Shown: positions 14,346 to 16,517 of the stretch, one piece after another
How the letters are laid out: every line of letters begins with the position of its first letter
Position numbering within the stretch: position 1 is the first letter of the stretch
Assembly (NCBI RefSeq): GCF_900299525.1
Contig: NZ_OMKA01000029.1
Span: forward strand, 1-64,000
DNA from: Aquimarina sp. Aq78
GTDB lineage: Bacteria > Bacteroidota > Bacteroidia > Flavobacteriales > Flavobacteriaceae
Reading direction: 5' to 3'
Length of the DNA: 64,000 nucleotides
The notes under the pieces: generated by a model
Told to the model about the DNA's origin: nothing
Database searches by the model: none
The model's input: only the letters and a program-made list of their open reading frames with translations
Made by a program: the position numbers and the translations under genes

Positions 14346-14442
14346 TAAATCACTAATTTCTTATTTGTTATCGTACAATCTTGTGTAGATAGATGAATAA
14401 AGCACTCTTTTTGTATAAAAATAGTGAAAATCTTTTTTTTAG

Positions 14443-14464
14443 TTAGGATTCCTTACTATATTTG
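14443..14464 (+). promoter_or_regulatory. Palindromic operator abutting a -7 promoter box (site 1)
   Basis: AGTTAGGATTCCTTACT (14441..14457) is a 17-bp near-perfect palindrome. It runs directly into TATATTTG (14457..14464), an exact match to the TAnnTTTG -7 element, 36 bases before ATG 14500. Highly similar palindromes occur at 14752 and 15857. The position between the -33 and -7 elements suggests repression, probably by the MarR-type protein at 15912; that assignment is inference. Confidence 0.7.
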
Positions 14465-14499
14465 CATTGCAATTTTGCATAACCTTAAAATATATACAA

Positions 14500-14733
14500 A
14501 TGAGTAAATCAATTTTTTATCATGCTGGATGTCCAGTATGCATTAGTGCAGAACATGATATTGTTAATCTAATCGGATCAGACAATGTAGAGATTGTTCA
14601 TTTAGGAGAAGATCGTTCTCAAATCAAGAATGCTGAAACGGCAGGAGTTCAATCTGTTCCTGCGCTACTAACATCTAATGGAAATGTGCTACATATCAAC
14701 TTTGGGGCTTCTATGGCAGATGTTAAAGGGTAA
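14500..14733 (+). CDS. Small thioredoxin-like protein with CPVC motif
   Basis: This 77-residue protein has a thioredoxin/glutaredoxin-like fold. A CPVC redox motif lies at Cys11-Cys14 after the first strand (KSIFYHAGCPVC), and a cis-Pro motif at Val53-Pro54 (VQSVPALL). It has no signal peptide, so it should act in the cytosol in thiol-disulfide exchange. The start is ATG 14500, because a TTG at 14467 would overlap the promoter. The gene sits behind a palindromic operator and -7 box. A second palindrome and a terminator follow it. It is shorter than classical thioredoxin (about 105 residues). The neighbours DUF2024 and MarR are also cysteine-bearing, suggesting a shared thiol or oxidant theme. 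Confidence 0.8.
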   Translation: MSKSIFYHAGCPVCISAEHDIVNLIGSDNVEIVHLGEDRSQIKNAETAGVQSVPALLTSNGNVLHINFGASMADVKG

Positions 14734-14751
14734 TTTTTTTAATCTAAATAG

Positions 14752-14764
14752 TTAGGAATCCTAA
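14752..14764 (+). promoter_or_regulatory. Perfect palindromic operator (site 2)
   Basis: TTAGGAATCCTAA is a perfect 13-bp palindrome, almost identical to sites 1 and 3. It lies 18 bases after the thioredoxin-like stop codon and 17 bases before a terminator hairpin (14782..14818). No good -7 box follows it, unlike the other two sites. Confidence 0.65.
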
Positions 14765-14781
14765 TTGTTTAGATCAACTCT

Positions 14782-14818
14782 AAAATGAGCCAATCATTGA
14801 TAATTGTTGGCTCATTTT
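14782..14818 (+). terminator. Terminator or attenuator between thioredoxin-like and lipoprotein genes
   Basis: The stem AAAATGAGCCAA/TTGGCTCATTTT has a 13-base loop. It separates the CPVC gene from the lipoprotein gene at 14843, only 24 bases before that start codon. It may end the upstream transcript or act as an attenuator for read-through. Confidence 0.7.
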
Positions 14819-14842
14819 AACTAACAATACAACTATAAAAAG

Positions 14843-15568
14843 ATGAAAAATACAATTATAACTATAGTATTCATGGCACTTAGCAGCACTCTAACTGCCT
14901 GCGATGAATGTAAAAAATATAATAATGATGATGTACAGATAGTAAAAGCTTCTGTTATACACAATACCGATATTAATAGTACTATTTGGGAAATTAATGT
15001 CAAAGGAAACGCGGGAAAAACAACCCCGGTTCCAGCAGGACAATTGCATGGCGCTCCTGTATTGGGTTATGTTTTCCCTACTACTCTAAAACCAACTGAT
15101 GTAGGATTTAATGATACTCAGGGTATTGTAGCATTGGCTTTAACATCTCACCCCGACTTTGATGATACCCCACTATGGGATGAGAACAATGATTTTATCT
15201 ATGATAACGATGGAATTATATGGCATCCACATTGGGTAGTTCTTCATAAAGATGATCGGGTTGATGGTGGATTATCTGTAAAGCAATTCAAAAAAACAGA
15301 TACATCTGTAAAATTACCTCCCACTAATCCAGGAATGCCCATGTATATGGATTCTCCAGGATTTCAGGTCACTACCAATAAAACCAGTATTAAAGTAGTA
15401 ATACCAGATTATAGGATAAACAATAAAACCGATTTTAAGTTCGATGCTGTTTCTGCCTATATGCAGGTAAATACCGAAACAAAAGATAAACCTATGCTTG
15501 GTGTTTATAAGGTATATAGTGTTTTAAGCAAAGATTTATCTCTTCCATATACTGTACAATCAAAATAA
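14843..15568 (+). CDS. Uncharacterised lipoprotein of the thiol-related cluster
   Basis: This 241-residue protein has a lipoprotein signal (MKNTIITIVFMALSSTLTAC, Cys20). A second cysteine lies at residue 23 (ACDEC). The mature part is rich in Asp, His and Trp, with distinctive segments PVPAGQLHGAPVLGYVFPT, DGIIWHPHWVVLHKD and PGMPMYMDSPGFQV. The clustered His, Met and Trp residues (WHPHW, GMPMYMD) could suit metal or ligand binding, but no family was recognised. It is followed 8 bases later by the DUF2024 gene, so the two are probably cotranscribed. A terminator-like hairpin lies just upstream. It should sit in the periplasm or outer membrane. Confidence 0.75.
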   Translation: MKNTIITIVFMALSSTLTACDECKKYNNDDVQIVKASVIHNTDINSTIWEINVKGNAGKTTPVPAGQLHGAPVLGYVFPTTLKPTDVGFNDTQGIVALALTSHPDFDDTPLWDENNDFIYDNDGIIWHPHWVVLHKDDRVDGGLSVKQFKKTDTSVKLPPTNPGMPMYMDSPGFQVTTNKTSIKVVIPDYRINNKTDFKFDAVSAYMQVNTETKDKPMLGVYKVYSVLSKDLSLPYTVQSK

Positions 15569-15575
15569 TACTATA

Positions 15576-15839
15576 ATGACAAAAATAGCCGTTTGGGATA
15601 CTTACGTACAACGAGATGATGGGGTCATAATGCATTTTGACATACTCGTCCCCGATTCTATAACAGATCAGAATATTGTGTTTAAATTCGGAGAAAATTA
15701 TCTGGAAACTAAACCCTTTAAAACAGAGAAAATTACCACTAATGAATGTAAACTCTGTCATATCGAACAAGCGACTCCAGAAATGAGTAATGATATCGAA
15801 ACCAAAGGATATTCGATTATCGAAATGGAAAATTGCTAA
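15576..15839 (+). CDS. DUF2024 family protein
   Basis: This 87-residue small cytosolic protein matches the DUF2024 pattern: AVWDTYVQRDDGVIMHFDILVP at the start, KFGENYL in the middle and a CKLCHIE motif. Cys58, Cys61 and His62, with a C-terminal Cys87, could bind a metal or cycle as thiols. No enzymatic role is established for the family. It lies 8 bases after the lipoprotein gene and just before the palindrome and promoter of the MarR-type gene. The long opposite-strand open frame over it was rejected as a shadow. Confidence 0.85.
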   Translation: MTKIAVWDTYVQRDDGVIMHFDILVPDSITDQNIVFKFGENYLETKPFKTEKITTNECKLCHIEQATPEMSNDIETKGYSIIEMENC

Positions 15840-15856
15840 AAACGACAAATAAATAA

Positions 15857-15874
15857 TTAGGATTACTAACTTTG
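15857..15874 (+). promoter_or_regulatory. Operator overlapping -7 box of the MarR-type gene (site 3)
   Basis: TTAGGATTACTAA (15857..15869) is the third copy of the palindrome family. Its last three bases are the first three of TAACTTTG (15867..15874), an exact TAnnTTTG -7 element. This layout fits autorepression of the MarR-type gene at 15912. Confidence 0.7.
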
Positions 15875-15904
15875 CTTAAGAGAAGGTGACACTTTCTCTT
15901 AAGC
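15874..15904 (+). other. Hairpin in the 5' leader of the MarR-type gene
   Basis: GCTTAAGAGAA and its exact reverse complement TTCTCTTAAGC flank a 9-base loop. The hairpin starts at the last base of the -7 box and ends 7 bases before ATG 15912, so it would form at the extreme 5' end of the mRNA. The following ATTTTAT is a weak T run, so it might instead terminate the DUF2024 transcript. Confidence 0.6.
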
Positions 15905-15911
15905 ATTTTAT

Positions 15912-16517
15912 ATGAGCAAGAGCATTTTTGACATATCATTTCAACATAAAGATATCAATAGCAAAATTGTAATTGGCCTGGAGCGTATTTCTGAGGTCTT
16001 TAGAACTTTGTTATGGGAACATGCAAAAACTGTAGGTTTAAGTCCCATACAGATACAGATTATAATTTTTATAGCATATCATAAAGAAGATTTATGTACA
16101 GTTAGTCATCTTGCAAAAGAATTTAATGTAACTAAACCTACGATTAGTGATGCTGTTAAAGCATTAGAAAAAAAAGAAATGATCTTCAAAAATAAGACTT
16201 CGGCAGATAATAGAAGTTATTATATAAGCTTAACTCCAAAAGGTCAAAAAAATGTTTCTGAGGCTGAAAATTTTGCAGACCCCATTAAAAAACAACTTTT
16301 AAGTTTTAATACAGAAGAACAAGAATCTTTGTTAAAGACCATAAACATCTTAATTTATCAGCTAAACAGATCAGGAATATTATCTGTACAAAGAACTTGT
16401 TATGCTTGTAAGTTCTATAAAAAAAACAAAAACAATCATTATTGTAATTTTATACAAACAGAGCTTGAAGATGTGGATATTAGATTAGATTGTGCTGACT
16501 TTGAAGAGAGGCCGTAA
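15912..16517 (+). CDS. MarR-type winged-helix regulator with C-terminal cysteine cluster
   Basis: This 201-residue DNA-binding regulator has a MarR winged helix at about residues 25-150 (LSPIQIQIIIFIAYH, VSHLAKEFNVTKPTISDAVKALEKK, wing with TSADNRSYYISLTPKG). An unusual C-terminal tail follows, with CYACKFYKK, HYC and RLDCADFE, giving Cys163, Cys166, Cys178 and Cys194. That spacing could hold zinc or an iron-sulfur cluster or act as a thiol switch. An extra Cys62 lies near the recognition region. Its promoter overlaps palindrome site 3, and two related palindromes lie in front of the CPVC gene and behind it. It is the most likely repressor of this small regulon. MarR proteins usually bind such 15 to 20 bp palindromes as dimers. 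Confidence 0.85.
   Translation: MSKSIFDISFQHKDINSKIVIGLERISEVFRTLLWEHAKTVGLSPIQIQIIIFIAYHKEDLCTVSHLAKEFNVTKPTISDAVKALEKKEMIFKNKTSADNRSYYISLTPKGQKNVSEAENFADPIKKQLLSFNTEEQESLLKTINILIYQLNRSGILSVQRTCYACKFYKKNKNNHYCNFIQTELEDVDIRLDCADFEERP

Follow-up and report, generated by a model that had tools for sequence, protein, structure and literature searches.

The window analysed here is a stretch of 64,000 nucleotides from Aquimarina sp. Aq78 (contig NZ_OMKA01000029.1, positions 1 to 64,000 of the forward strand). On its + strand it carries a cluster of four genes that, according to open reading frame (ORF) calls and Pfam, encode a CPVC thioredoxin-like protein, a secreted protein or lipoprotein, a DUF2024 protein and a MarR-family regulator, here named MarR4C. 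The cluster also contains three related palindromes. A single short palindrome seems to be the means by which this MarR switch governs its own gene and a few redox genes. Relatives of the switch and of the palindrome are found next to heme proteins able to bind nitric oxide (NO), which suggests an undescribed NO-type stress response. The features under discussion are the following, in the coordinates of the window:

14441..14457, no strand: operator 1, AGTTAGGATTCCTTACT, in the CPVC promoter (string match, with a counterpart in relatives)
14457..14464, + strand: -7-like box TATATTTG of the CPVC promoter, an exact TAnnTTTG with one base common to operator 1
14500..14733, + strand: CPVC thioredoxin-like protein, 77 amino acids; Pfam thioredoxin models match below cut-off only
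14750..14766, no strand: operator 2, between the CPVC and lipoprotein genes, 17-mer AGTTAGGAATCCTAATT, core TTAGGAATCCTAA at 14752-14764
14781..14819, + strand: terminator-like hairpin with a T-rich 3' side (RNA fold -18.1 kcal/mol)
14843..15568, + strand: secreted protein, lipoprotein-like here, 241 amino acids, without Pfam or PDB relative
15576..15839, + strand: DUF2024 protein with a CxxCH motif, 87 amino acids (PF09630, E 1.4e-29)
15855..15871, no strand: operator 3, in the MarR promoter, 17-mer AATTAGGATTACTAACT, core TTAGGATTACTAA at 15857-15869
15867..15874, + strand: -7-like box TAACTTTG in the right half of operator 3, an exact TAnnTTTG with a five-base overlap
15873..15905, + strand: terminator-like hairpin between the -7 box and the MarR start (RNA fold -19.9 kcal/mol)
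15912..16517, + strand: MarR-family regulator MarR4C, 201 amino acids (PF12802, E 1.6e-11; PF01047)
16398..16493, + strand: four-cysteine tail of MarR4C (C163, C166, C178, C194), invariant in alignments

An adjacent TonB-type protein and a serine hydrolase were considered as parts of the unit and excluded, because they do not recur with the cluster in relatives.

The operators and their conservation

TAnnTTTG is the -7 consensus of the Bacteroidota. An earlier, sequence-only reading of the window had described three palindromes, two of them abutting or overlapping exact boxes of this type, and this description is borne out: the sites lie at 14441-14457, 14752-14764 and 15857-15869, site 1 shares one base with its box and site 3 five. 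Operator 2 has no exact TAnnTTTG box. With at most one mismatch to TTAGGANTCCTAA, the three reported sites are the only ones in the 64 kb. By itself, the looser form TTAGGAWTMCTAA with two mismatches is found 20 times in the window against 16.6 expected, which is not above chance. A scan of the genome for the palindrome, as the sequence-only reading had proposed, gave a divided outcome. In the whole host genome TTAGN5CTAA, one-mismatch TTAGGAWTMCTAA and one-mismatch ANTTAGGAWNNCTAANT are all at or below the reversed-pattern control, and we therefore claim no further regulon members there; the sites at the cluster are conserved in relatives. Mismatch-free ANTTAGGAWNNCTAANT, searched in 27 genomes, gave locus sites mixed with scattered ones. 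That the three palindromes are not due to chance follows from their conservation, and the sequence of the window alone would not settle the question.

MarR homologues at E 1e-20 or better are present in 35 of 149 Flavobacteriaceae genomes, the window's own included, which gives a set of 34 loci plus the window (n = 35). Here CPVC is found in 30 of the 35 loci, DUF2024 in 18 and the secreted protein in 16, and other gene clusters recur in at most 4. For the sites we used TTAGGANTCCTAA with up to two mismatches, with dinucleotide shuffles as controls. A site lies 5' of MarR in 28/35 loci (1.4% of shuffles), 5' of CPVC in 25/30 (0.8%) and within 90 bp 3' of CPVC in 21/30 (1.6%). By this comparison the own-promoter sites, placed at the -7 box, behave as operators, in line with the compact, autoregulated MarR regulon that had been proposed from the sequence.

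When stacked, the sites fall into three distinct classes. The CPVC-upstream site (25 sequences) lies about 57 bp before the start codon at a near-fixed distance, mostly in the form TTAGGATTCCTTA / TAGTTAGGATTCCTTACTATATTTG, and its -7 box is kept. In the MarR-upstream site the right half is weakened and serves at the same time as the -7 box, TTAGGATTACTAACTTTG; in most cases a hairpin comes next and then the start codon. A TAnnTTTG box is present at this site in 18 of the 35 loci. The middle site is symmetrical, with an additional half-site on its 3' side in about 8 of 21 cases (judged by eye). Most of the 25 promoters also share an element of the form GCAATaaTGCA about 4 bases past the -7 box of CPVC; in the window it reads GCAATTTTGCA (14469-14479).

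The same picture is obtained when starting from CPVC. Among 80 named genome loci collected with CPVC, 76 could be scored for the upstream site, which is present in 71, compared to 15 of 513 other ORFs of these loci; the possibility that the palindromes are random or absent in relatives is thus set aside. A tailed MarR is found in 69 of the 80. For the relation between site and regulator, 73 of the 80 loci were scored, leaving out one without a found start and six with short downstream sequence, and the operator is present in 65/66 CPVC loci with MarR versus 3/7 without (Fisher p 1.6e-4).

In more distant relatives the motif at up to two mismatches is contained in 12 of 19 regions (by eye), among them Nostoc MarR/tpx, Sphingopyxis MarR, Thermus P460 and Spirosoma DUF2024 (one record each). 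In the Gammaproteobacteria, whose regulator has a changed recognition helix, another palindrome, GTATCGNNTCGATAC, occupies this position in 3/3 cases. Taken together, the palindromes look like real operators, and we are highly confident, on comparative grounds, that MarR4C pairs with them.

A few side observations concern the same sites. Operator-like sequences with 0-2 mismatches lie 5' of an AAA-ATPase-like ORF of about 239 amino acids near MarR or CPVC in loci L170, L198, L134 and L145, with a YggS-type gene nearby in three of these. The ATPase-like ORFs are possible further members of the regulon. Among the 28 loci in which MarR has an upstream site, 18 have a predicted fold of -10 kcal/mol or lower from site to start, counting fold energy alone. 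In the window, the strong hairpin at 15873..15905 begins at the -7 box and precedes the MarR start codon. Perhaps it ends the upstream operon, and for this reason transcription of MarR may begin within that operon's terminator.

The regulator and its four-cysteine tail

The MarR domain of MarR4C scores above the curated cut-offs (PF12802 44.6 bits, cut-off 27; PF01047 33.9 bits, cut-off 24.6), and the best relative, from A. megaterium, is 95% identical. The protein has cysteines at positions 62, 163, 166, 178 and 194 and no others, the last four forming a tail with the spacing C-x2-C-x11-C-x15-C. These four are the sole invariant cysteines among 16 MarR sequences, window included, which span Bacteroidota, Pseudomonadota, Cyanobacteriota and Deinococcota with identity to the window protein down to 20%; an Acidobacteria locus from a metagenome-assembled genome (L166), which may be a misbinned Bacteroidota contig, was not counted as a phylum. 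A 45-row alignment that overlaps the 16 gives the same four, again alone, and C62 is not invariant. The four-cysteine tail noted in the sequence-only reading is thereby confirmed as a feature of the family. The tail cysteines are also found in 26 of 26 further loci of the host phylum, 23 by pattern and three by reading; of these three, one shows a longer gap in the four-cysteine pattern and the other two had no called MarR ORF.

As the one invariant cysteine feature of MarR4C, the tail is likely its sensor. Known redox or metal-responsive MarR types match poorly. OhrR-type redox MarR proteins have a reactive cysteine near the N terminus; the OhrR model gives 25.8 bits on MarR4C against a cut-off of 200, and no cysteine is present near its N terminus. 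The NCBIfam model of the zinc MarR AdcR reaches 37 bits against a cut-off of 175. None of the best 60 of 129 PDB matches covers the tail, all of these ending at or before profile position 151 of 198.

Heme-protein genes and the operator

We now consider the genes that accompany MarR4C outside the window. MarR4C (E 1e-25 or better) is present in 28 of 395 sampled genomes of the host phylum. Samples of the same size and obtained in the same way, which we treat as identical with the first, served to count protoglobin (PF11563) and P460 (PF16694). Of the 16 genomes with protoglobin, 5 have MarR4C (one-sided Fisher 0.003); of the 15 with P460, 9 do (one-sided Fisher 4.5e-8). All protoglobin genes of the 28 MarR4C genomes (6/6) lie within 1.3 kb of MarR4C, and 5 of the 9 strong P460 genes adjoin it, versus 0/10 of the weaker P460 matches. 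Several loci without CPVC have protoglobin or P460 beside MarR4C, and two further loci have truncated hemoglobin there (family assigned by similarity to Pfam-checked copies). In annotated plasmid records, Hymenobacter combines MarR with protoglobin, a hexameric heme protein and DUF2024, and Thermus has MarR with cytochrome P460. Some MarR4C loci have no such heme protein, e.g. L261 and L269-L271; in L269-L271 an M1 peptidase lies 3' of MarR4C (Pfam on two of the three).

The operator was then sought in the 300 bp before the domain, at up to two mismatches, with P460 genes limited to matches at E 1e-20 or better. Where the genome has MarR4C, 10 of the 15 protoglobin and strong P460 genes are preceded by it, including two that are not linked to the regulator gene. 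Broken down, it is present before the first protoglobin beside MarR4C in 4/5 cases and before a second one in 0/1, before adjacent P460 in 4/5, and before unlinked P460 in 2/4, both sites being perfect. The adjacent P460 scored as a miss, in genome G152, has a perfect site further upstream, before a small CxxCH ORF that precedes P460. In genomes without a MarR4C match, the operator was found before 0/13 protoglobin and 0/7 P460 genes. It also precedes truncated hemoglobin in L144 and L177.

Perfect 13-mers were searched in 65 chosen genomes, 28 with MarR4C and 37 without, 17 of the latter chosen for holding protoglobin or P460. The 28 contain 15 of them, 11 at the MarR4C locus or before a P460 operon and a twelfth 0.8 kb from MarR4C; the 37 contain 3. 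The three f48 genomes G417, G425 and G483 have no perfect site, and the protoglobin of G425 has TCAGTAATACTGA in place of the operator.

The compact unit in the window is part of something larger; by sequence comparison, the predicted regulon in other genomes is wider and includes protoglobin, cytochrome P460 and truncated hemoglobin. Cytochrome P460 is listed as detoxifying NO and hydroxylamine (NH2OH), and protoglobin is described as binding O2, CO and NO (PMC3772326). The truncated hemoglobin of Helicobacter pullorum is reported to react with NO and to help an E. coli hmp mutant (PMC5577044). In part, genes for proteins that react with NO may thus share one operator, in genomes other than that of the window; for the window's own four genes an NO-reactive product is conjectural. 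Among open-licence PubMed Central papers, DUF2024 occurs in one and the four exact operator forms in none; of those that combine at least two of protoglobin, P460 and MarR family, none describes this link in its title or at the beginning of its abstract.

Proposed mechanism and alternative explanations

On the basis of these comparisons we propose the following mechanism. MarR4C would repress its own gene by binding palindromes of the TTAGGANTCCTAA type, which lie on or right next to the -7 boxes of the MarR and CPVC promoters; it would also bind the site between CPVC and the lipoprotein gene, so that the cluster is kept off. The C-x2-C-x11-C-x15-C tail would hold a metal site, either an iron-sulfur (Fe-S) cluster or zinc thiolates. 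NO, or reactive nitrogen species derived from it, would damage this site and the repressor would leave the DNA. In the window, this would derepress the small CPVC thioredoxin, which perhaps strips NO groups or disulfides from thiols, together with DUF2024 and the secreted protein as defence proteins; in other lineages it would derepress protoglobin, cytochrome P460 or truncated hemoglobin. DNA binding, dimer formation, repression, cofactor and signal of MarR4C are inferred here, as are the roles of the CPVC, DUF2024 and secreted proteins. We judge the chances of the model as a whole, an autorepressor with an NO-attacked tail metal site and a defence regulon, to be even, and the same balance applies to NO or reactive nitrogen as the signal. 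An Fe-S cluster rather than zinc in the tail falls just short of an even chance. A bolder generalisation, which we offer tentatively and would sooner expect to fail than to hold, is that MarR4C represents a new class of NO-sensing MarR repressors, which would carry an Fe-S site on four C-terminal cysteines and command NO-handling proteins that are exchanged for one another between lineages; part of this reading is an operator nearly unchanged from Bacteroidota to Cyanobacteria, Alphaproteobacteria and Thermus (single records each). Under it, NO-linked functions would also fall to DUF2024, to the small CPVC thioredoxin and to a large family of secreted proteins that lacks a Pfam entry.

A number of observations weigh against this proposal. 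The perfect 13-mers are not enriched in number: the 28 MarR4C genomes have 15 of them against 17 reversed-pattern sites, and the 37 others 3 against 23. Since the count is not raised, only the places of the perfect sites argue for function. There is no site at up to two mismatches 5' of MarR in 7/35 Flavobacteriaceae loci, and 7/19 distant regions lack the motif, three of these having another palindrome. The window cluster itself contains no protoglobin, P460 or truncated hemoglobin, and the search of its genome found no protoglobin or P460. All three heme proteins also bind ligands other than NO, and the H. pullorum truncated hemoglobin mutant is reported to be as resistant to S-nitrosoglutathione (GSNO) as its parent (PMC5577044). 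As to the tail, the PDB search gave no relative of known cofactor and Pfam gave no match, and zinc is about as possible there.

The sequence-only reading had left the signal as an oxidant, an electrophile or a metal. The thiol side of this is partly supported, and thiol oxidants remain the main rival to NO because redoxins, catalase and thiol peroxidase also occur as neighbours. MarR4C would then be a thiol-redox or electrophile repressor whose four cysteines, with or without zinc, are oxidised by hypochlorous acid (HOCl), peroxides, quinones or sulfane sulfur, and whose regulon repairs thiols. A CPVC thioredoxin stands at the core of the cluster; in Sphingomonas and Sphingopyxis a redoxin lies directly 3' of CPVC in loci with MarR, in Nostoc a thiol peroxidase is divergent from MarR, catalase lies near MarR in Hymenobacter and Pararhizobium, in the latter together with TlpA and truncated hemoglobin, and in Thiothrix thiosulfate transport and TusA genes are near CPVC. 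Redoxin, thiol peroxidase, catalase and TlpA also fit thiol oxidants. MarR proteins that sense sulfane sulfur and reactive oxygen species (ROS) are moreover the subject of a review (PMC11211675). However, the thiol explanation accounts poorly for the presence of the operator at protoglobin and P460 genes where the genome has MarR4C and its absence from such genes in the other genomes examined, and MarR4C lacks the N-terminal redox cysteine of OhrR, its sole non-tail cysteine not being invariant. We consider it unlikely, although a serious competitor. The heme proteins of the wider regulon make NO or reactive nitrogen better supported than a generic oxidant, an electrophile or a metal.

Those same heme proteins, which make up most of the non-thioredoxin members elsewhere, could be regulated because the tail reports the status of heme, iron or zinc. 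Four cysteines are able to bind zinc or iron, and the AdcR model does match, weakly. Yet no metal or heme transporter was recognised by eye among the recurring neighbours, with the exception of a metal-ATPase-like ORF divergent from CPVC in L153, and we regard this option as improbable. Less probable still is that the palindromes are terminators or the targets of another regulator, with their nearness to MarR incidental. Operator 2 does lie within a longer inverted repeat able to form a 15-pair hairpin, terminator-like hairpins follow sites 2 and 3, and the unenriched number of perfect 13-mers in MarR4C genomes would agree with it. This would leave unexplained the near-fixed distance to CPVC with a -7 box, the way in which the sites track the presence of MarR4C, their occurrence at two unlinked P460 genes in MarR4C genomes versus 0/20 heme genes elsewhere, and the substitution of GTATCGNNTCGATAC at the same place, 3/3, where the recognition helix has changed.

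If the NO model is correct, three orphan families would be joined to one stress: DUF2024, the CPVC protein and the secreted proteins, the last with 4417 homologues and no Pfam entry. NsrR and ArnR would be accompanied by a further kind of NO sensor, and the 13-bp operator would be a handle to locate further members. The Thaumarchaeota are the group that holds the ammonia-oxidising archaea. DUF2024 is reported in 29/30 Thaumarchaeota (PMC6393860), and the model would provide a testable reason for its retention in nearly all of them.

Other genes of the cluster and further neighbourhoods

The closest solved relative of the CPVC protein is 2K8S chain A (E 8.1e-24), and DUF2024 has the solved relative 2HFQ (E 3.1e-13), both from PDB searches; the two structures come from Nitrosomonas europaea. 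FYHAGC.VC is invariant in the CPVC family (24-row alignment), and the window protein is 100% identical to the copy in A. macrocephali. The secreted protein is accounted for by no PDB chain or Pfam family. Its family has 4417 homologues at E 0.001, the 28 compared rows being 54-78% identical to the window protein. Conserved cysteines had been claimed for all four products, a statement that fails for this protein: the 29-row alignment of its family contains no invariant cysteine, and the invariant residues include His and Asp. The invariant stretch SHPDFDDTP together with H128/H130 suggests a metal site. One record of the family bears the name 'LexA family transcriptional regulator', apparently by misannotation.

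In other lineages the cluster is found with varying company. Annotated plasmid records of Pseudomonas and Enterobacter sp. 638 have MarR, CPVC, DUF2024 and a Rho-binding antiterminator; E. hormaechei has the MarR cluster without DUF2024. Because the Rho-binding antiterminator gene closes the cluster in L215, L216 and L221 (Gammaproteobacteria), the response in these bacteria may extend to transcription termination. CPVC relatives occur in 56 Enterobacter plasmid records and 66 records overall, 61 of them predicted conjugative, and on the E. hormaechei plasmid (L216) CPVC is beside MarR in a tyrR-tpx-mppA stretch that looks chromosomal in origin. In P. aeruginosa the cluster corresponds to PA0939-PA0942; papers that contain some of these locus numbers mention them in gene lists only. 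Thiothrix and Cytobacillus CPVC have no annotated MarR within 5 kb, and the Paraburkholderia and Sinorhizobium records show a neighbourhood without clear context.

In L131, L165 and L173, CPVC is preceded by genes for RIC and hemerythrin, and L131 and L165 have truncated hemoglobin as well (the Pfam check was made on the L131 copies). Directly 5' of the RIC gene in all three we observed a tryptophan 2,3-dioxygenase-like ORF of 302 amino acids (L131:2434-3339; PF03301 on the L131 copy), in surroundings that form an apparent NO-detoxification cluster.

Comparison with known systems

MarR4C resembles MarR/SlyA-type autorepressors in its MarR winged helix and in the short palindrome in its own promoter; SlyA recognises a TTAG...CTAA palindrome too. 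The difference is the four-cysteine tail that MarR4C adds after the MarR fold. SufR, an ArsR/DeoR-like regulator of suf genes, also joins a winged helix to a C-terminal cysteine Fe-S site, but no suf genes were recognised by eye among the recurring neighbours of MarR4C loci. In gene content, the NO regulon of NsrR is similar, with RIC, hemerythrin and truncated hemoglobin following an Rrf2 gene in L165 and flavohemoglobin beside Rrf2 in Hymenobacter, whereas NsrR, an Rrf2 protein, belongs to another regulator family. Within the Bacteroidota, BmoR of Bacteroides fragilis is described as a MarR autorepressor tied to thiol balance, which in contrast to MarR4C has TTTCC inverted repeats and other targets (PMC6158253).

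Another close parallel is ArnR of Corynebacterium, described as a winged-helix protein of MarR/ArsR-like type, with a [4Fe-4S] cluster near its C terminus, that represses the NO-detoxifying gene hmp and whose DNA binding is abolished by NO (PMC12343034). Like ArnR, MarR4C joins a winged helix to conserved C-terminal cysteines, four of them invariant. By its published description, ArnR has three conserved cysteines (179, 193 and 223) and no fourth, and is found in Actinobacteria only (PMC12343034); MarR4C is set apart from it by its four cysteines, their different spacing and its occurrence in other phyla. By analogy, ArnR offers a tested precedent for the type of switch that we propose for MarR4C, a winged helix released by NO through a C-terminal Fe-S cluster.

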